Positions 52,992 to 61,490 of a stretch of DNA of 64,000 nt are shown here, piece by piece; position 1 is the first letter of the stretch; each line of letters opens with the position of its first letter. Location: positions 310,001-374,000 of the forward strand of contig NZ_JHXO01000005.1 in NCBI RefSeq assembly GCF_000621705.1, in the 5' to 3' direction. Position numbers and translations under genes: made by a program. Under the pieces are notes generated by a model. It did no database searches and was not told the origin of the DNA. It worked only from the letters and a program-made list of their open reading frames with translations. The stretch is from Prolixibacter bellariivorans ATCC BAA-1284. GTDB taxonomy: Bacteria > Bacteroidota > Bacteroidia > Bacteroidales > Prolixibacteraceae.

Positions 52992-53756
52992 TTACCGGCT
53001 TAGGGGGAGTAGTTCTTCCTTCACCCATCGAAAGTTGGGGGCTTCGTTCAATAGTTGTTTGAATAGTCTATTTGCCTCTCCTTTACGATCTTCATCCATG
53101 TAAGTTTTTCCGAGCCAGGCTCCTGTGTAATAATAGAACCATGTTTGTTTTGCGTCCGGTTCGGCATTCATCAGTTTCCAGGCTTTTTCATATTGCTGAA
53201 TGGCTGTTTTCCGGCTGCCTCCGAAGATGGCCGGACGAAAGAAGTAACTGTTTCCCTCTTCAAACCAAACGCGGGGTTCCTGTGCATTTAACTTTTTCGC
53301 CAGCTCAATATTGTCCTGACTTTTAGGCCCCAGCCAGGGAGCCTTCCAGGGTTTTAAACCTATTTGATAGCCGATTAGTGCCGCTTTGATGGTATATAGT
53401 TTGGCTGAATCGGGATAACGGTTGATACCTTCATCCAGGATTGCCATTGTTTGGTCGATACGTTGTTGTGCCTCTTTTTTACGTTTTTCCGAAAGGAGAT
53501 AACCAATGTACCCGTATTGTGCCTCACAGAGGGTAAATATCCGGTCGAAATCATTGTGCTGTTTTTGCCGGTAAAGTTGTTCAATCAATGCCGGCCAACG
53601 AACCATCTGACTTCGAAGGTAGCTGGTTTTTAACTGATGTTGGATGGAATCAAGCTTTGTTTTTCCCGGTTGCTCTTCTTGCGGAAAAGCATTGGACAGA
53701 CCGGCGACCAGTAGGAAAAATATTATTAGCCAAAAGGTACTTCCCGCTCTTTCCAT
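52992..53756 (-). CDS. Periplasmic TPR-like protein at the end of the carotenoid operon
   Basis: 254 residues from the ATG at 53756 (MERAGSTFWLIIFFLLVAGLSNA, signal peptide); the open frame continues upstream but overlaps the GT2 gene. TPR-like helical repeats: FDRIFTLCEAQYGYIGYLLSEKRKKEAQQR, IDQTMAILDEGINRYPDSAKLY, WYYYTGAWLGKTYMDEDRKGEANRLFKQL. No enzyme motif. Its start overlaps the GT2 end by 31 bases, so it belongs to the same transcript; a role in carotenoid handling is only suggested by position. Confidence 0.75.
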   Translation of the reverse strand: MERAGSTFWLIIFFLLVAGLSNAFPQEEQPGKTKLDSIQHQLKTSYLRSQMVRWPALIEQLYRQKQHNDFDRIFTLCEAQYGYIGYLLSEKRKKEAQQRIDQTMAILDEGINRYPDSAKLYTIKAALIGYQIGLKPWKAPWLGPKSQDNIELAKKLNAQEPRVWFEEGNSYFFRPAIFGGSRKTAIQQYEKAWKLMNAEPDAKQTWFYYYTGAWLGKTYMDEDRKGEANRLFKQLLNEAPNFRWVKEELLPLSR

Positions 53757-54826
53757 CTTACGGTTTTTTTGCGTTTGCCCAATAAGTTCCGTACCAATAT
53801 GTGTGTTAATGCTGCCATTTGCAACGGATGATAATACAGATTGGTCCAAACTGGTTGCCTGCTGTGTAAGGAGATGATTATTCGTAATAAAATAGCCTGA
53901 CAGATTAATACCAGCGTTGTTGCGACGGGGAGCAGTAGTAGGCCAATTAAGATTCCCGGTATGGTAAGTAGCCAAAAGAGGATCATTATTGCTGAATAGC
54001 CTCCAAAATACTGGTGGATATTTCGGGAAAACCCTTCCACTGCTTCCCGGTAGGAGGAGTACATACGACAGGAAACAGCGCCGAAGTTCGCCAGTACTTC
54101 TACCCGAAATCCTGCCTTTTTCATTTTTCGCATGAGCAGGATATCCTCCACATTCTCGTGCTTCACCTGTTGGTGCCATTGATTTTCACTGTAGTTTTTT
54201 GCCTCGAAAAGCATAAACTGACCATTGGCTGCAGCCAGAGACGACTGTTTCAATAATCTGACCAACGGTAAGGGGAGGAGACTGATCAAAATCCAGTTCA
54301 TTAATGGGACAGTGGATTTTTCACCCGTTGAATACATGATTTGCCGCGGAAACAGCGATAGGAGAGAGAGATTTTTATGGATTACCCGGTTGATAATCGG
54401 TGACAGAAATCCGGATTGAACATGTACATCTGCATCGAGAAAGAGCAGGTAGTCACCTTTTGCCTTTTGGGCAAGTTGGTGGCAGGCGAAATTCTTCCCT
54501 AACCAACCGGTGGGAAGCTTTTCGCTGGTGAACCACTGAAAATTTTTCTCTGTTTGAACGAATTTTTCAAGGATCTCCGGGGTATTGTCCGTGGAGTGAT
54601 CGTTGCAGACAATGACTTCGTAGTCCCGATAGTTCAGCTTTATGAGCGATTTGAGCAAAGCCGGTAAATTATGTTCTTCGTTGCGTGCCGGAATAAGAAT
54701 AGAAATCATTGGTTTTTTCCCCGTAAGGGAAGCTGCTAAGTTCCGGGGGCGGGTGAGAACATTCACCACAGCAATGAAAAGTCGTAGACTCAAAAACATG
54801 AATGATATGACTGCCAGGATGTGCAT
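53726..54826 (-). CDS. Family 2 glycosyltransferase, CruC/CrtQ-like
   Basis: 366 residues from the ATG at 54826 (MHILAVISFMFLSLRLFIAVVNVL); a start at 54856 is also possible but overlaps the upstream stop. One N-terminal membrane helix, then GT2 domain (ISILIPARNEEHNLPALLKSL, LFLDADVHVQSGFLSP as DxD, QQVKHENVEDILLMRKMKKAGFR as the ED region), and three C-terminal membrane helices. Membrane GT2 enzymes of this type glycosylate carotenoid hydroxyls (CrtQ of staphyloxanthin, CruC of chlorobactene). Together with the adjacent acyltransferase it is expected to make an acylated carotenoid glycoside. Confidence 0.8.
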   Translation of the reverse strand: MHILAVISFMFLSLRLFIAVVNVLTRPRNLAASLTGKKPMISILIPARNEEHNLPALLKSLIKLNYRDYEVIVCNDHSTDNTPEILEKFVQTEKNFQWFTSEKLPTGWLGKNFACHQLAQKAKGDYLLFLDADVHVQSGFLSPIINRVIHKNLSLLSLFPRQIMYSTGEKSTVPLMNWILISLLPLPLVRLLKQSSLAAANGQFMLFEAKNYSENQWHQQVKHENVEDILLMRKMKKAGFRVEVLANFGAVSCRMYSSYREAVEGFSRNIHQYFGGYSAIMILFWLLTIPGILIGLLLLPVATTLVLICQAILLRIIISLHSRQPVWTNLYYHPLQMAALTHILVRNLLGKRKKTVRWKEREVPFG

Positions 54827-54828
54827 GC

Positions 54829-55446
54829 CTATTGTTCCGTTTGCTGCTTGATACATTCCCGGTAAAAATGATTGAAATCATTCTCAATGTCAGGATAGGA
54901 GGAACTTCCGGAAAGTCCCTTGTCCTGAAAGTAGAGATAGAGGCCCGGTCGGCGGTTGGAAAAATAATCAACCAATGCTACATAATAAACTATGCGAAAA
55001 TTGAGGTTGCTACGGTTGGTTAGGTATCTTATTCCCTTTTCGAAAGAAAAAGAGTGGTTGTATAACGATTGAATTCTTCCCTGTGGGTAAATCACCACCA
55101 GATTATTGGGGGTTTGTAGTATTTCGGCCGTATAATTCATTGTTTCCAGGATGCTGCGATTTCCCTTATTGATGGAGTAGGCTCCGGCATTATTTAAGAA
55201 CATCCTCTGTGAAAGTTCCTTTTCCAGCATCATGACATGGAATTGCTTTTTCCAGAACTTGCGGTTAATGCGATAAGCAATAAATCCATCCCACCACGAA
55301 AAATGATTGCCGATTAAAAGAATCGGTTCATCCGAAACCGGAGGTTGATTCACGAATGTAATCTTGCTAAAGTCCCAATGAAGGATGATGGGAACATACG
55401 TGTTGAAGAAATGGGTATGCCAAAAGAGGTGTCTCGCTTTTATCAT
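54829..55446 (-). CDS. PlsC-type acyltransferase, CruD/CrtO-like
   Basis: 205 residues from the ATG at 55446 (MIKARHLFWHTHFFNTYVP); the open frame upstream (to 55785) is the out-of-frame shadow of crtW. The 1-acylglycerol-3-phosphate acyltransferase block NHFSWWDGF (HxxxxD), then VVIYPQGRIQS (the E/G block) are present. Small size and place beside the GT2 suggest transfer of an acyl chain to the carotenoid glycoside, as CruD does in green sulfur bacteria. The start overlaps the crtW stop by 4 bases. Confidence 0.78.
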   Translation of the reverse strand: MIKARHLFWHTHFFNTYVPIILHWDFSKITFVNQPPVSDEPILLIGNHFSWWDGFIAYRINRKFWKKQFHVMMLEKELSQRMFLNNAGAYSINKGNRSILETMNYTAEILQTPNNLVVIYPQGRIQSLYNHSFSFEKGIRYLTNRSNLNFRIVYYVALVDYFSNRRPGLYLYFQDKGLSGSSSYPDIENDFNHFYRECIKQQTEQ

Positions 55447-56123
55447 GTTTGTTTCTCTTTTGTTTGGTAGAGTCTCCACCAGGGAATGCGCGGAAACAGG
55501 TGATGTTCGTGGTGATATCCGAAAAAGTAGCAGGTGAGCATTGCTTTCAGATGGTTGCGTTTTTGTGTGCGTGTACGGTGAACATCCATGTCCGGGGTGT
55601 GTGGTTTCCGGTGAGGAACATAGGTGCCGAAGTAAAAAAGTTGAAGCGTACCCAAAAAAGCCGGAACTACCCAGAAGGCGAAAATGGCCGGTTGAGGGAA
55701 GGCAAGTGTCAACAGGTTGAAAACAACTGCCATGATTAATAGCTGGTACCAGGTGACATAATTTTTCATGAAGCCAAACCACCAAAGCCAGAAATTCTGG
55801 TGCCGCTCATTGAAATCAGGGTCTTTTCCCGTACCCGGAAACTGGTGATGAAGCATGTGCTTGCGGCGGAGCCGCGGAAACCACATGCCGGCAAACAAAA
55901 ACGCTGCGGTTCTGCCCAACGCATTATTTATTTTCCGGTTAACGGAAATCGTACCGTGCATAGCGTCGTGAGCAGTGATAAAAAGCCCGGTATAGAGGTA
56001 TCCCTGCACCAGCATATGAAACCACATCCACGGATTTGCCATGGAGGTCTGAACATATAACAGAGAATAAAGAAGATGAGCAGTCCAGAAAAAGATGATA
56101 ATGAACGCCATTAGAATTCCCAT
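55443..56123 (-). CDS. crtW: Beta-carotene ketolase (CrtW-like, fatty acid hydroxylase superfamily)
   Basis: 226 residues. The histidine motifs of CrtW are all present: FITAHDAMHGT (about 48), KHMLHHQFPGTGKDPDF (about 88), FGTYVPHRKPHTPD (about 167) and FGYHHEHHLFPRIPW (about 200). Four membrane helices. It introduces the 4-keto group into a beta-ring. The stop overlaps the downstream acyltransferase start by 4 bases. Confidence 0.88.
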   Translation of the reverse strand: MGILMAFIIIFFWTAHLLYSLLYVQTSMANPWMWFHMLVQGYLYTGLFITAHDAMHGTISVNRKINNALGRTAAFLFAGMWFPRLRRKHMLHHQFPGTGKDPDFNERHQNFWLWWFGFMKNYVTWYQLLIMAVVFNLLTLAFPQPAIFAFWVVPAFLGTLQLFYFGTYVPHRKPHTPDMDVHRTRTQKRNHLKAMLTCYFFGYHHEHHLFPRIPWWRLYQTKEKQT

Positions 56124-56125
56124 TG

Positions 56126-56779
56126 CTACAATAAGATTCCCAGAATAAGAAAAAAGACCAGCTGAATCGCCATTAGTGGCAGAGCCATGTGGTTCTTCGT
56201 TTTCAAACGAAACAGGTGGAACAGGTCGAGCATCACAATCGATGTGATAAACCAGGCCAGATAGTTCTGGAACGGAACTTCACCATTACTCCAGTTCCAC
56301 ATACCGGTTTTAACGGCAGCCGGTTCCAGTAATAAATCAAATACGACCAGTACTACTGCGCCAATGAGTGCTTTCAGCCAAAGTGGAAATGAAAATGGCT
56401 CGAGAATGGTGTAAACAGAGTAGATTTGTATAAGCCATAAAATCCCAATGATAAGTGGCGTCTCAAAAAGCTTGGGACCCAGTGTGCTGCCGTATTCATA
56501 AACTCCGAAGACGTGTCCTGTTTTTACGCCCAACACTTCTACCAGAAATCCAATGGCAAAAACCAAGAACGATGCGACGTATAATCCGGAAGTTGGATTT
56601 TCCTCGAAAAGGTAAAGTAAGATGACGGTTCCAAGCAAAAAGATGGGGGTAATAGCCTGGAAAAAAGGACGTGAATCGGGGAAAATCAACCCGATAAGGC
56701 CAACGGCATAAAACAACATCAATATTCTGCGTAAGGTAACCTGTGAAACGTTTTGTAATGATTTTCGAAGGTTTTTCAT
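56126..56779 (-). CDS. cruF: Carotenoid 1,2-hydratase (CruF-like)
   Basis: 217 residues from the ATG at 56779 (MKNLRKSLQNVSQVTLRR); the frame to 56833 is longer but overlaps crtD. Seven hydrophobic helices; conserved ASFLVFAIGFLVEVLGVKTGHVFGVYEYGSTLGPKLFETPLIIGILW and VVFDLLLEPAAVKTGMWNW match the DUF422/CruF family, which hydrates the psi-end of monocyclic carotenes at C1'. Two bases after it follows crtW; five bases before it ends crtD. No hydratase CrtC is present. Confidence 0.85.
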   Translation of the reverse strand: MKNLRKSLQNVSQVTLRRILMLFYAVGLIGLIFPDSRPFFQAITPIFLLGTVILLYLFEENPTSGLYVASFLVFAIGFLVEVLGVKTGHVFGVYEYGSTLGPKLFETPLIIGILWLIQIYSVYTILEPFSFPLWLKALIGAVVLVVFDLLLEPAAVKTGMWNWSNGEVPFQNYLAWFITSIVMLDLFHLFRLKTKNHMALPLMAIQLVFFLILGILL

Positions 56780-56784
56780 GGTCG

Positions 56785-58245
56785 TTATTCTTTGGGTATC
56801 ATGTCGGACACAATTTTTGCCGAAGCCAGGCAAAGAGGAATGCCACCGCCCGGATGCACACTTCCTCCGGTAAAATACAATCCTTTCAGTTGTTTGCTGA
56901 AATTTGGATGCCGCATGAAAGCGGAGAAAATATTGTTGGAGCTGGAGCCATATAAAGCTCCGGCTTCAGAGCTGGTACGGTGCTCGATATCTCTGGGAGT
57001 TAAACGTTTTTCTACTACAATATGTTTTTCTATCTGCATGTCAAGTTGAGACTCCAGTTTGGCAATAATATGCCGGCGGGTCCGCTCTACGAGGTTGTCC
57101 CAGTTTTGTCCGTTGTCAGCCGGGGCATTCACCATAACAAACCAGTTTTCCTTTCCGGGAGGTGCATCGTTTGCTTCCATTTTACTGCTGATGTATAAAT
57201 AAATGGTCGGGTCGTCGCTGATGGCTGATTGCGAAAATAACATCCTGAACTCTTCCATGTAGTTGGTACTGAATAAAATATTGTGCAAGCCTGTTTCTTT
57301 GCTGTTGGTATTCATTCCCCAAAAGAAAATCAATGCCGAGGAAGACAACTCCGGTTGTTCTCTTCGCCGAACTTCTTGATTCAGGAACTGCCTTTTGAAA
57401 TGGTGGATATCCACATCGCTGATAACGATATCAGCTGGTACATGCATGTTACCTGCTTCGACGCCGGTAACTTTACCGTCGGCGGTTGTCAGCGAATTGA
57501 CCCGGGTATTGAACCGGAAAGTGACTCCGTGGCGTGCGGCCAGCCGATGCAATTCGCTGGCTATTTTGTACATCCCTCCGGAAGGAAAGAATGCTCCGGT
57601 ATTGTGTTCCAAATGGGAAATGATTTTTAGGGTGGCGGGAGCCCGGAAAGGGTCGGAGCCATTGTATGTTGCGTATCGGTCAAATATCTGTTGCACTTCC
57701 TTGGTTTGGAACGATTTCCGGTTAGCCTGGTGAAGAGAACGGAAGGGATCAAGTAATCCGGGACGCATCAATGTACCAAACGCTTTCCGGTTACGGAACG
57801 TTTTCATCCGGTGAAGAGAAGAGAACAGAAACAAATCTGCTGTAAAATGATACAGCCGTTTTGCTTTTTTCAGATAGCGGAGTGTATTCTCTTTGGGCTC
57901 TCCAAGCTTCGATTCCAGTTCGCTACTGAACTTTTCCGGTGATGTCCATGCATGAACTTTTTTCCCTTCAGGATAAAAATACCGGCACGATTCGTCCAGT
58001 TTTCTAATGGTCAGATAGTCTTCGGCTTTTTCACCTACCAGGGTAAAGAGTTCTTCCACCAGATGCGGTAAGGTTAGCAACGACGGACCTGTGTCGAAGC
58101 GGAAATCTTCGGTCCGGATTTCAGACATTTTTCCTCCGGGATAAGCTTCCTGCTCAATAACAGTGACTTCGTAATTCTTCGCTGCCATGCGGATAGCTGA
58201 TGCTAATCCTCCAATTCCTGCGCCAATGACGACTGCCTTTTTCAT
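56785..58245 (-). CDS. crtD: Carotenoid desaturase of the CrtD type
   Basis: 486 residues. FAD-binding GAGIGGLASAIRMAAKNYEV at the N-terminus, FRFDTGPSLLTLPHLVEELF (about 47), and the C-terminal YFTGGSVHPGGGIPLCLASAKIVSD carotenoid-oxidase signature. The DTGPSLLTLPHLV form and the neighbours CruF and CrtW point to a 1-hydroxycarotenoid 3,4-desaturase (CrtD) rather than to a second phytoene desaturase, which is encoded by crtI on the other strand. Substrate would be the 1'-hydroxylated psi-end. First gene of its arm, divergent from crtI. Confidence 0.82.
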   Translation of the reverse strand: MKKAVVIGAGIGGLASAIRMAAKNYEVTVIEQEAYPGGKMSEIRTEDFRFDTGPSLLTLPHLVEELFTLVGEKAEDYLTIRKLDESCRYFYPEGKKVHAWTSPEKFSSELESKLGEPKENTLRYLKKAKRLYHFTADLFLFSSLHRMKTFRNRKAFGTLMRPGLLDPFRSLHQANRKSFQTKEVQQIFDRYATYNGSDPFRAPATLKIISHLEHNTGAFFPSGGMYKIASELHRLAARHGVTFRFNTRVNSLTTADGKVTGVEAGNMHVPADIVISDVDIHHFKRQFLNQEVRRREQPELSSSALIFFWGMNTNSKETGLHNILFSTNYMEEFRMLFSQSAISDDPTIYLYISSKMEANDAPPGKENWFVMVNAPADNGQNWDNLVERTRRHIIAKLESQLDMQIEKHIVVEKRLTPRDIEHRTSSEAGALYGSSSNNIFSAFMRHPNFSKQLKGLYFTGGSVHPGGGIPLCLASAKIVSDMIPKE

Positions 58246-58382
58246 GCTAGTGTATGGATTGTCCTTGAATTTGTGTAAATTATAACTGATTCCTTCTACA
58301 GAGCCTTTGACTGAGTACCAATATTTCTATCTATAACAGTAAGAAGATCCTCAGTATTTTGAACAAGAGGAAAACTTATTTG

Positions 58383-58454
58383 TTTAATGATTTGCAAAAA
58401 TAGTTAAACGACTTGCTCGTTTCATATTATTTTGACAATTCAATTTAACGATTT
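58383..58454. promoter_or_regulatory. Repeated TTTAAYGATTT motif in the divergent carotenoid promoter region
   Basis: TTTAATGATTT at 58383-58393 and TTTAACGATTT at 58444-58454, 61 bases apart in the same orientation, and GTTAAACGA at 58403-58411 in between. Shared words in the intergenic gap between crtD and crtI suggest a shared regulator site. No regulator gene is visible. Confidence 0.35.
58395..58402 (-). promoter_or_regulatory. Possible -7 box for the crtD-cruF-crtW arm
   Basis: Minus-strand TATTTTTG fits TAnnTTTG. At 20-base spacing upstream lies TATG, one mismatch to TTTG. It would give a leader of about 140 bases. Confidence 0.35.
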
Positions 58455-58486
58455 ATACAAGAAGAATCTTTCTAATTTATTGACAA

Positions 58487-59983
58487 ATGGGGAAATCAGT
58501 CTTGGTAGTTGGTGCCGGCCTTGGAGGATTATCTACGGCTCTACGTCTCTCATCCGATGGTTATGATGTGACGGTGGTAGAGAAGAATAGTAAAGCAGGT
58601 GGCCGTTTAAATTTATTACAAAAAGATGGCTTTTCCTGGGACCTGGGACCTACCTTTTTTAGCATGAGCTACGAGTTTCGCGAGCTAATACATTATTGCA
58701 AAATGGAAATGCCTTTCCGTTTTGTTGAGCTGGACCCTTTATATGCCGTTCATTTCGCCGACGAAACTAAGCCAAGGATAATTTATAAAGATCTGAAGAA
58801 ACTGGTTGAGGAGTTTCGTGATGTGGAACCCGATTTCGAAAAGAAAATGCGCCGTTTCCTGGATGAAACAGGTCGTTTGTTTCATGATACCGAACAAGTA
58901 ATCATTCGCAGAAACTTTGATTCGATTTTGCAGTATGCGCTGCAATTGACACGGGTACCGCTGAAGCATGCGCCGAAATTGTTTCGAACCATGTGGAAAG
59001 AACTGGAGCGTCATTTTACCTCGTTCGAAGTAAAAGTAATTTTTTCGTTGGTCGGTTTCTTCCTGGGAAATACTCCGTTTAACACACCGGCGGTTTTCAC
59101 TCTGCTATCCTATACCGAAATGGAACATGACGGCTATTACAACGTGGAAGGCGGGATGTACAAAATTGTCACTACCCTGATGGACGAGCTAAAAAAGAAA
59201 GGCGTGCAGTTTGCCTTTAATACGGAGGTAGTCGATTACAAAGCTGACGGGAAAAAGATAAACGGGCTAATTGATGATGACGGTAAGGAATGGAATGCTG
59301 ATGCTTATGTGATTAATTCCGATGCGGCCTGGTTTCGTGGAGCGGTTTTGAAACGACCGGCTTATTCTGAAGCCAAGCTGGATAAAATGAACTGGACCAT
59401 GGCTCCACTGACGATTTATCTTGGAATCAAAGGGAAGCTTGATGGTATGTATCATCACAATTATTTCCTGCGAAAGAACTTTAAGGAATACGCGGGAGGG
59501 ATTTTCCAAAACAAAGTGAGTCTCGATCAGCCTTATTATTATGTCAATATTCCTTCGATGCATAATCCGGAGTACGCTCCAGACGACCACGAAAGTGTGT
59601 TTATCCTTTGTCCTGTTCCCGATAGAAGGTTCAAGCCTTCGTGGGACGATGCCGATGAGATTGCCGACCGCATTATCGATGATCTTTCTGAACGGACCGG
59701 AACGAATTTGAAGGAGCGTATTGTTTCGCGAACGGTGTTTTCTCCGATTGAGTGGGAATCTAAATTCCGGCTGTTCCGGGGTAGTGGTCTCGGATTGGGA
59801 CACAATTTGATGCAGGTTGGCGGATTACGCCCCCGCAACTTCGATGAATACTACCGCAATGTATTTTATGTGGGAGCTTCCACCACGCCTGGAACCGGTT
59901 TGCCTATGACGGTCATCAGCTCCCGGTTAGTAACTGAACGAATAAACCAAGCCTATGGACTTGTATCTGAAAACCAGCATTGA
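58487..59983 (+). CDS. crtI: Phytoene desaturase
   Basis: 498 residues. FAD-binding GAGLGGLSTALRLSSDGYDV (about 8-27), WDLGPTFFSMSYEFRELI (about 52), and the C-terminal NVFYVGASTTPGTGLPMTVISSRLVTERI signature. It desaturates phytoene to lycopene. First gene of the plus arm; its end overlaps the crtB start by 29 bases, so translation is probably coupled. Start is the ATG at 58487 (MGKSVLVVGAGLGG). Confidence 0.92.
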   Translation: MGKSVLVVGAGLGGLSTALRLSSDGYDVTVVEKNSKAGGRLNLLQKDGFSWDLGPTFFSMSYEFRELIHYCKMEMPFRFVELDPLYAVHFADETKPRIIYKDLKKLVEEFRDVEPDFEKKMRRFLDETGRLFHDTEQVIIRRNFDSILQYALQLTRVPLKHAPKLFRTMWKELERHFTSFEVKVIFSLVGFFLGNTPFNTPAVFTLLSYTEMEHDGYYNVEGGMYKIVTTLMDELKKKGVQFAFNTEVVDYKADGKKINGLIDDDGKEWNADAYVINSDAAWFRGAVLKRPAYSEAKLDKMNWTMAPLTIYLGIKGKLDGMYHHNYFLRKNFKEYAGGIFQNKVSLDQPYYYVNIPSMHNPEYAPDDHESVFILCPVPDRRFKPSWDDADEIADRIIDDLSERTGTNLKERIVSRTVFSPIEWESKFRLFRGSGLGLGHNLMQVGGLRPRNFDEYYRNVFYVGASTTPGTGLPMTVISSRLVTERINQAYGLVSENQH

Positions 59984-60791
59984 CTGTAGTCGTATAACGA
60001 CCCGGAACTATAGTACATCATTCTCTCTTGGGATTTTGATGCTGAAATCTCAATATCGGGATGCTATTTATTCCATTTATGGCTATGTCCGTTTTGCGGA
60101 TGAGATTGTCGATACCTTTTTCGAGTATCAGCAACGTGAGCTTTTGCAAGAGTTCCGTAAGCAAACCTACGAGGCAATTGAGCGGGGCATCAGTATGAAC
60201 CCGGTGCTGAATAGTTTCCAGCATGTGGTAAACAAGTATCATATCGATCATCAGCTTATCGATGCCTTCCTCGATAGTATGGAGATGGATCTGGATTTTG
60301 ATGTGTACGACGAAAAGCGCCTCAAGACTTACATTTATGGCTCAGCCGAAGTGGTTGGCTTGATGTGTTTGCGCGTTTTTTATCCCGATGATGATAAAAC
60401 GTACCTGGAATTGGTTTATCCGGCAAAAAAACTGGGAGCCGTTTTTCAGAAAGTAAATTTCCTGCGCGATATCAAAGATGATTACCAGGGGAAGGGAAGA
60501 CTCTATTTTCGGGATATTGATTTCGATAGTTTTGATAAAGGAACCAAGCAGAAAATCGAACAGGACATTGAGTCGGATTTTAAGGAAGCTTTTCAGGGAA
60601 TTATCAAGTTGCACAGGGATGTCCGGCTTGGCGTCTACCTTGCCTATTTGTATTATCGTAAATTATTCGAAAAAATTAAACGAACTGCACCCAATCATAT
60701 CCTGAAATCGCGTTTGCGTGTTCCGGGATTTCGAAAAATGACGTTGCTTTTTACAGCTTACGCTCGTCATGCCTTTGGTTTGATAATCTGA
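59955..60791 (+). CDS. crtB: Phytoene synthase
   Basis: 278 residues, squalene/phytoene synthase family. The two aspartate-rich motifs are seen: YVRFADEIVDTFF (about 36-46) and NFLRDIKDDYQGKGRLYF (about 168-183), with YIYGSAEVVGLMCLRVF in between. It condenses two geranylgeranyl diphosphates into phytoene. Overlaps crtI by 29 bases and is followed by the cyclase gene after 3 bases. Confidence 0.95.
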   Translation: MDLYLKTSIDCSRITTRNYSTSFSLGILMLKSQYRDAIYSIYGYVRFADEIVDTFFEYQQRELLQEFRKQTYEAIERGISMNPVLNSFQHVVNKYHIDHQLIDAFLDSMEMDLDFDVYDEKRLKTYIYGSAEVVGLMCLRVFYPDDDKTYLELVYPAKKLGAVFQKVNFLRDIKDDYQGKGRLYFRDIDFDSFDKGTKQKIEQDIESDFKEAFQGIIKLHRDVRLGVYLAYLYYRKLFEKIKRTAPNHILKSRLRVPGFRKMTLLFTAYARHAFGLII

Positions 60792-60794
60792 TAA

Positions 60795-61490
60795 ATGGCA
60801 ACCGGAAAGTTTACATATTTTATTCTGTTATTCCTGAGTCTTCTTGGGCCGCTATTGCTTAGTTTCGACAAGAAGGTTCATTACTATAAGCGATGGAAAT
60901 TTCTGTTTCCTGCCATCTTGCGGGCAGCGGTCTTATTCATTTTATGGGATATCATTTTTACCCGTACCGCTATTTGGGGCTTTAACGAGAAGTACATTGT
61001 TGGTTGGCAAGTTTGGCATCTTCCGGTTGAAGAGTGGTTGTTTTTCCTGATCATTCCATTCAATTGCCTGTTTATTTTTGATGTAATGGTCTTCTATTTT
61101 CCAAGATTAAAGTTTCCATCGAATGCCTTAAATCGAGTGGTACTGGCAGTTTTGGCTGTCTTATTGTTAGGTCTTTCCCTCTATTTTCGGCGCCAGTATT
61201 ACACCTTCATTGTATCGCTCCTTACGGCTTCTTACCTTCTTATGATTTTAATCTTCAGACGACATCTTGGCTGGCTCGCTCATTTTCTTGTCGCCTATCT
61301 TATTGTATTAATCCCGTTTAGTATAGTGAATGGGCTTCTCACCAGTCTTCCGGTTGTTTGGTACAACCCCACTGATAATCTCGGGATTCGTTTTTTGACC
61401 ATCCCCGTGGAGGATTTTATCTATTTATTTTTACTGTTTTTAATGGTGACCGATTTTTACAAAGTCCTTTTGCGAAAGAACAGTAAGTAA
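60795..61490 (+). CDS. crtY: Lycopene cyclase, fused CrtYc/CrtYd type
   Basis: 231 residues with about seven hydrophobic helices. The PxE(E/D) blocks of the heterodimer-type cyclase occur twice: WHLPVEEWLFFLIIPFNCLF (about 76) and LTIPVEDFIYLFLLFLMV (about 205). This is the fused form of the CrtYc-CrtYd polypeptides seen in Bacteroidetes and archaea. It cyclises one or both psi-ends of lycopene; the presence of CruF and CrtD implies mainly one ring. Translation begins 3 bases after crtB. Confidence 0.9.
   Translation: MATGKFTYFILLFLSLLGPLLLSFDKKVHYYKRWKFLFPAILRAAVLFILWDIIFTRTAIWGFNEKYIVGWQVWHLPVEEWLFFLIIPFNCLFIFDVMVFYFPRLKFPSNALNRVVLAVLAVLLLGLSLYFRRQYYTFIVSLLTASYLLMILIFRRHLGWLAHFLVAYLIVLIPFSIVNGLLTSLPVVWYNPTDNLGIRFLTIPVEDFIYLFLLFLMVTDFYKVLLRKNSK

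Follow-up and report, generated by a model that had tools for sequence, protein, structure and literature searches.

A divergent carotenoid gene cluster in Prolixibacter bellariivorans with a predicted acylated ketocarotenoid glycoside as product and an exported TPR protein that accompanies cruF

In green sulfur bacteria a glycosyltransferase and an acyltransferase, CruC and CruD, reportedly act last in carotenoid synthesis, and the cluster described here is predicted to end in a similar way. This cluster is found in Prolixibacter bellariivorans ATCC BAA-1284 at positions 52992-61490 of the window, by which is meant the whole stretch of 64,000 nucleotides analysed (310001-374000 of contig C3, NZ_JHXO01000005.1, in an assembly of 5.15 Mb). 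The flexixanthin genes of Algoriphagus, as given in passages of PMC10784355, have crtB, crtI, a fused crtYcd, crtW, cruF and crtD in common with it but also include crtZ and, in the three strains compared, crtG, whereas no CrtZ-family gene was found here; plsC, GT2 and TPR genes are present here, while the word 'glycosyltransferase' is absent from the text of that paper. Rhodothermus marinus, according to parts of PMC5822342, shares the two divergent operons and the predicted product type, the non-hydroxylated form included, but uses CrtY and CrtO and has CruC outside the cluster; the same parts report no CruF homologue and no CrtD found for certain. The enzymes of the Prolixibacter pathway are ordinary, and the TPR partner is the new part.

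The cluster consists of nine genes in two divergent arms, all with fitting domains in searches with Pfam and NCBIfam profiles:

58487-59983, plus strand: crtI, phytoene desaturase (TIGR02734, crtI_fam, 342 bits, cut-off 238)
59955-60791, plus strand: crtB, phytoene synthase (PF00494, SQS_PSY, 150 bits, cut-off 26)
60795-61490, plus strand: crtYcd, fused-type lycopene beta-cyclase (PF18916, 111 bits; TIGR03462, 107 bits, cut-off 39)
58246-58486, no strand: divergent intergenic region in the gap between the crtD and crtI starts, presumed to hold the promoters for both arms
56785-58245, minus strand: crtD, 1'-hydroxycarotenoid 3',4'-desaturase (NF042421, 549 bits, cut-off 500)
56126-56779, minus strand: cruF, carotenoid 1',2'-hydratase (PF04240, 99 bits, cut-off 25)
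55443-56123, minus strand: crtW, beta-ring 4-ketolase (PF00487, FA_desaturase, 96 bits)
54829-55446, minus strand: plsC-like acyltransferase, predicted to acylate the carotenoid sugar (PF01553, 37 bits, cut-off 23)
53726-54826, minus strand: GT2 glycosyltransferase, predicted 1'-O-glycosyltransferase (PF00535, 88 bits)
52992-53756, minus strand: exported TPR protein of a sister group of HusA (signal-peptide-like N-terminus, co-conservation with cruF)

Gene identities and gene order are read directly from the sequence. The plus arm has the order crtI-crtB-crtYcd and the minus arm, counted from the promoter, the order crtD-cruF-crtW-plsC-GT2-TPR, with genes that overlap or stand at most 5 nt apart; each arm would give one transcript. 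The eight genes named in the initial annotation were all recovered in place with Pfam or NCBIfam matches. Its identities for the minus arm stand, while its order had to be corrected to crtD, cruF, crtW, plsC and GT2 from the promoter, and besides the five genes it named there a sixth, the exported TPR protein at 53756-52992, had been overlooked.

The CrtYcd protein of 231 aa carries two lycopene-cyclase (PF18916) stretches and is of the fused type. CrtB passes the Pfam cut-off and misses the NCBIfam equivalog cut-off. The histidine boxes of CrtW can be read in the sequence as HDAMH, HMLHH and HHEHH, and the HX4D motif of PlsC is present as NHFSWWDG; an alignment of 10 sequences shows HX4D and PQG unchanged throughout. 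Selection on each of the nine genes is purifying, with dN/dS values of 0.04-0.14 against Prolixibacter denitrificans at a dS of 0.9-1.6, which is near saturation, and the cluster is therefore not a product of chance. The nearest GT2 among named records is that of P. denitrificans, 76% identical, in a record (L152) that has the same nine genes. The core set of crtB, crtI, cyclase, cruF, crtD and ketolase is complete, as expected for a cluster of the deoxyflexixanthin/salinixanthin type, and the carotenoid cluster is confirmed as real.

In the proposed pathway CrtB and CrtI would produce lycopene, of which CrtYcd would cyclise one end only. CruF would hydrate the open end to give a 1'-hydroxyl, CrtD would introduce the 3',4' desaturation and CrtW would add the C-4 keto group, resulting in a carotenoid of the deoxyflexixanthin type; GT2 would attach a sugar to the 1'-hydroxyl and the PlsC-like enzyme would acylate this sugar. 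The 1'-hydroxylated carotenoid would also be what the exported TPR protein works with, most likely at a site beyond the inner membrane, where the protein would either carry the pigment towards the outer membrane or hold the membrane enzymes together. Taken jointly with these roles for GT2, PlsC and the TPR protein, the product is quite probably a monocyclic 4-ketocarotenoid whose CruF-derived hydroxyl bears an acylated sugar, i.e. of the non-2'-hydroxylated salinixanthin type. The 4-keto, 1'-hydroxy, 3',4'-didehydro monocyclic core had already been proposed in the initial annotation and is supported by sequence and gene context.

By the known chemistry of these enzyme families the deoxyflexixanthin core is C40H54O2. 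Hand calculation gives C61H92O8, with an exact mass of about 952.68, for the predicted product if the sugar is a hexose and the acyl chain C15, and C59H88O8 for the core with one hexose and a C13 acyl chain. In a part of PMC5822342, peak 3 of R. marinus, named salinixanthin, is an acyl glycoside of C59H88O8 and peak 4 is the hydroxylated form; this formula supports the proposal because the pathway predicts the same one with a C13 chain.

Several points weigh against this product. The structure is deduced from genes, and two of the identities needed for it fall short of their strictest models: the CruF equivalog models of NCBIfam match the 56126-56779 product below cut-off, and the CrtW model NF045690 scores 230 bits, which is under its equivalog cut-off of 350. 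The GT2 sample used below also leans towards the cluster's own kind. In the part of PMC8368055 that describes colour, P. bellariivorans, SD074 and NT017 are beige, and the cluster may therefore be silent; cells of P. denitrificans, which has the same nine genes, are salmon-pink, and this counts in favour of the proposal.

The search of the whole genome for the CrtZ family (PF04116) gave no match, with a control search positive in 2 of 14 named genomes, and so bears out the absence of a crtZ noted earlier. As for crtE, which the initial annotation had named as a gene to look for, two polyprenyl synthase genes are located elsewhere in the genome and a supply of geranylgeranyl diphosphate (GGPP) is therefore possible.

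The assignment of GT2 and PlsC to the pathway is supported by their context. Of 149 relatives 73 have a lycopene-cyclase match, and 50 regions around such matches were examined. CruF is present in 23 of the 50, with PlsC and GT2 adjoining in 19 of these 23 and jointly absent from four. Among the named GT2 loci, which are the best 80 of at least 566 confirmed relatives, a crt gene is present in 76 and CruF lies within 4 kb on the same strand in 73, while PlsC stands directly upstream of GT2 in 75 of the 79 loci having enough sequence. Gene order varies, being mostly CruF-(CrtW)-PlsC-GT2 but PlsC-GT2-CruF in Mucilaginibacter, and because the arrangements differ, inheritance of a single gene order does not suffice to explain the association of GT2 with CruF. 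In the class sample GT2 (E<=1e-50) is found in 23 of 395 genomes and CruF in 21 of those 23, against 166 of 395 overall; G261 and G468 have GT2 but no CruF match. From this context the hydroxyl made by CruF is the likely natural substrate of GT2.

Two further observations were made on these genes. In G468 the GT2 homologue (G468:C7:273756-274808) has an in-frame stop, possibly a sign of decay after loss of the pathway. In Mucilaginibacter two tandem PlsC genes precede GT2 in L208, L213, L214, L218, L220 and L229, which might mean two acyl groups.

Three other accounts of the pigment genes were weighed. It is very unlikely that membrane lipids or lipopolysaccharide are the substrates of GT2 and PlsC and that the two stand in the operon by coincidence. 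The PlsC domain is a domain of lipid enzymes, and the NCBIfam matches of GT2 are all below cut-off, with hopanoid and polysaccharide enzymes among them (HpnB 111 bits and CruG 105 bits, both far below); with 105 bits against the NF045692 cut-off of 600, GT2 falls outside the CruG 2'-O-glycosyltransferases. CruF is also absent from two of the 23 class genomes with GT2, and no crt gene was seen in four of the 80 named loci. Against this, the GT2 family adjoins CruF across differing gene arrangements, and the homologue in the CruF-less G468 is the one interrupted by a stop. The NCBIfam scan of the cluster proteins had no model named CruC or CruD among its matches, and comparison with Protein Data Bank sequences matched GT2 to members of its family that serve other pathways or have no pathway assigned, and gave no match for PlsC, the latter being uninformative for function. 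The earlier view of the two as carotenoid rather than general lipid genes is supported by sequence and gene context.

Somewhat less improbable, though still doubtful, is a pigment that is glycosylated without acylation by PlsC, or a bicyclic, canthaxanthin-like product formed by a CrtYcd that closes both ends, since neither the regiochemistry of the cyclase nor the acyl acceptor can be read from sequence. CruF and CrtD require an open psi end of the carotenoid, which speaks against the bicyclic form, and the close pairing of plsC with GT2, directly ahead of it in 75 of 79 loci, together with the joint absence of both from four of the 23 CruF loci, speaks against a sugar without acyl chain. A role of the pigment as antenna for a light-driven rhodopsin, as raised in the initial annotation, has a precedent in salinixanthin, which plays this role in Salinibacter according to part of PMC13093654, but is almost certainly wrong for this organism: the genome is 99.8% complete and has no PF01036 match. 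This absence is meaningful because the same search finds matches in 89 of 395 class genomes, 85 of them above cut-off, and a xanthorhodopsin-type antenna was rejected for this genome. The acylated monocyclic glycoside remains the preferred product.

Variant arrangements of the pathway were seen in the same data. The loci L153, L155, L156, L158-L161, L163 and L263 have crtI, crtB, crtD and cruF and no CrtYcd match within the locus; in G020 (L263) the same contig has a CrtYcd at a distance of about 60 kb. Stand-alone fused lycopene-cyclase-like genes of 229 aa, with no other carotenoid gene in 20 kb, were found in L041, L066, L068, L071, L073 and L074 (about 9.5-10.3 kb). The neighbours in L041 are a GH2 glycosidase, a Kdo transferase and a ribonucleotide reductase, and in L066 a GH30 enzyme is found upstream. 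In the family f105 genomes G190, G229, G379, G449 and G509 the CruF domains are part of frames of 539-572 aa and may belong to fusion proteins.

The TPR gene goes with CruF and not with the sugar and acyl genes. Its reading frame (53756-52992) begins within GT2; the product has 254 residues, and its start resembles a signal peptide. A hydrophobic segment lies within the first 38 residues in all 21 aligned TPR sequences, an alignment in which two rows do not start exactly at Met, and the copy in L045 has a lipobox-like Cys. Among the CruF loci from lycopene-cyclase regions 22 of 23 have the TPR gene, and in G126, where the locus lacks it, a copy lies on a different contig. In 129 relatives the TPR gene (E<=1e-20) is found in 64, CruF in 63 and both in 58 (Fisher 1e-23; this p-value and the one below are uncorrected for kinship and hence inflated). 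Both genes are on one contig in 53 of the 58, with TPR downstream on the same strand in all 53 and within 4 kb in 52. A strong TPR match (E<1e-30) occurs in 14 class genomes of six families, the cluster's own genome included, and CruF is present in all 14, compared with 166 of the 395 genomes as a whole (Fisher 4e-6). Several of these copies do not adjoin CruF, and GT2 (E<=1e-50) is absent from 7 of the 14 genomes. The weak matches (E 1e-5 to 1e-30), in 47 class genomes, show no enrichment for CruF (17 of 47); the split at E 1e-30 was set after a gap in the list was seen. Scoring was limited to 7 candidates per genome in the class sample and to 21 in the 129 relatives, so that absences are not strict.

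Four CruF loci (L043, L045, L051 and L055) read crtD-cruF-crtW-TPR and lack both GT2 and PlsC over their 20 kb; L243 reads crtB-crtYcd-cruF-TPR-crtI. By a distance rule the TPR gene adjoins GT2 in 48 of 71 named loci with downstream room. The protein very likely has a carotenoid-related function. The inflated p-values count against this, as do those 23 of the 71 loci that were scored without an adjoining TPR gene, although L205 and L227 among them do have one; 13 of the remaining 21 are Mucilaginibacter or other Sphingobacteriales by record title, among which we presume Daejeonella and Desertivirga to belong. The relatives in which one gene occurs without a match to the other also count against it. 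Six of 129 have TPR and no CruF, of which G071 is a cut contig reading GT2-TPR-CrtI and the others (G045, G056, G093, G117 and G125) have no crt gene around TPR in the locus; five have CruF and no TPR (G003, G112, G124, G132 and G135). The neighbours of TPR homologues away from CruF had no common partner among ten neighbours of five loci, a short-chain dehydrogenase being found in two loci of one family and other genes elsewhere. In G003, which is of the same genus, CruF stands alone (L252) with no other pathway gene in 20 kb, and the genome has no match to CrtYcd or TPR.

The relationship of the TPR protein to HusA of Porphyromonas gingivalis (locus PG2227, named husA in a table of PMC10913741) is also read from the sequence. 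The TPR family profile (A1) matches HusA (PDB 6bqs/6crl) with E 1.2e-8 over 100 positions, with YTPAQFGGGK aligned against YxPxxFGGxK, although three designed or engineered TPR proteins outscore HusA against this profile by summing many repeats. A HusA-type profile (A4) made from 14 of the weak class matches finds HusA at E 1.2e-56, and the weak matches therefore look like true members of the HusA family. The carotenoid-linked and HusA-type profiles align with an hhalign probability of 99.5 (E 4e-22, 135 columns), and in 31 sequences P175, G179 and A185 are invariant within the motif YxPxxFGGxKxxA. The tree of these 31 sequences separates the carotenoid-linked side from the HusA-type with 100/100 support, which places the protein outside the HusA haemophore family proper. 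The carotenoid-linked side is not exclusive, since the unlinked L095 is among its rows and other unlinked copies branch beside it. By these comparisons the TPR protein is best placed as a sister group within the exported-TPR superfamily that includes HusA.

The two sides share a TPR-like fold and the YxPxxFGGxK motif, but differ in clade, in length (215 residues in HusA, about 250 here) and in the residues of the HusA site. According to parts of PMC6173696, HusA binds porphyrins in a hydrophobic groove without typical iron coordination and does not bind linear tetrapyrroles. At the position of HusA Y164 the group of about 250 aa has Y or F in 14 of 23 sequences, H in 7 and N in 2; at that of S119 it has G or A in 22 of 23, and W130 lies in an insertion relative to the carotenoid-linked family. 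A groove may thus exist in the TPR protein, yet by residue identity it would not be the porphyrin site. The predicted structure (pLDDT 92.9) has HusA as first fold match (Foldseek E 9e-5, Z 18.6), tied with an ordinary TPR protein (Z 18.5), and the high-ranking matches include a bacterial sterol transporter as well as PTPIP51 and TatT, which we take to be lipid or porphyrin binders. Because TPR folds are common and the Z values close, no function is read from this comparison.

HusA-type proteins themselves seem widespread in the class sample, with weak matches in 47 genomes (e.g. L106-L120); parts of PMC6173696 state that HusA homologues are confined to Bacteroidetes and highly homologous sequences to Porphyromonas. 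The TPR family is matched a second time, less strongly, in the genome of the cluster (G000:C4:450285-450686), in a frame of 215 aa, the HusA-type size, away from the cluster.

Two roles can be considered for the exported protein. It is possible, though rather doubtful, that it is a periplasmic carotenoid-binding carrier, a 'carotenophore', which would collect carotenoids at the inner membrane once their 1'-hydroxylation or glycosylation is complete and bring them to the outer membrane, by analogy with the handling of porphyrins by HusA. Such a carrier suits a protein that is exported, is related to a ligand carrier and accompanies CruF; it would explain why TPR follows cruF rather than GT2 and plsC, and why in the class sample the copies that are not adjacent are all in genomes with CruF (14 of 14 strong matches). 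Under this reading the five relatives with TPR and without CruF, G071 set aside, need another explanation, and a long linear ligand is less to be expected given that HusA does not bind linear tetrapyrroles. Alternatively the protein may serve the membrane enzymes as a protein-protein scaffold or as a factor in their assembly; this role has a chance not far short of even and is as likely as the carrier or more so. TPR folds mostly bind proteins, and the tie of HusA with an ordinary TPR protein in the fold comparison and the higher profile scores of the three designed proteins agree with a scaffold. The export signal agrees less well with it, as the enzymes would be expected at the cytoplasmic side; the ligand-binding haemophore HusA is, besides designed TPRs and their fusions, the sole solved sequence matched by the profile, and the match between the TPR and HusA-type profiles is at E 4e-22.

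No paper joining a TPR gene with these clusters was found in the open-access literature, in which HusA together with carotenoid was not searched, and novelty is not proven; a Synechocystis proteome paper (PMC9958174) contains both 'tetratricopeptide' and 'cruF'.

The results widen the HusA superfamily, with HusA-type proteins in many class genomes and a sister branch that accompanies pigment genes. The clusters without plsC and GT2 (four loci), beside those having both, form natural pairs for the function of the sugar ester. To our knowledge the movement of carotenoids between the membranes of Gram-negative bacteria is largely an open question. The small exported protein encoded after cruF in many Bacteroidota, including those whose clusters lack the sugar and acyl genes, is a concrete candidate for inter-membrane carotenoid transport.

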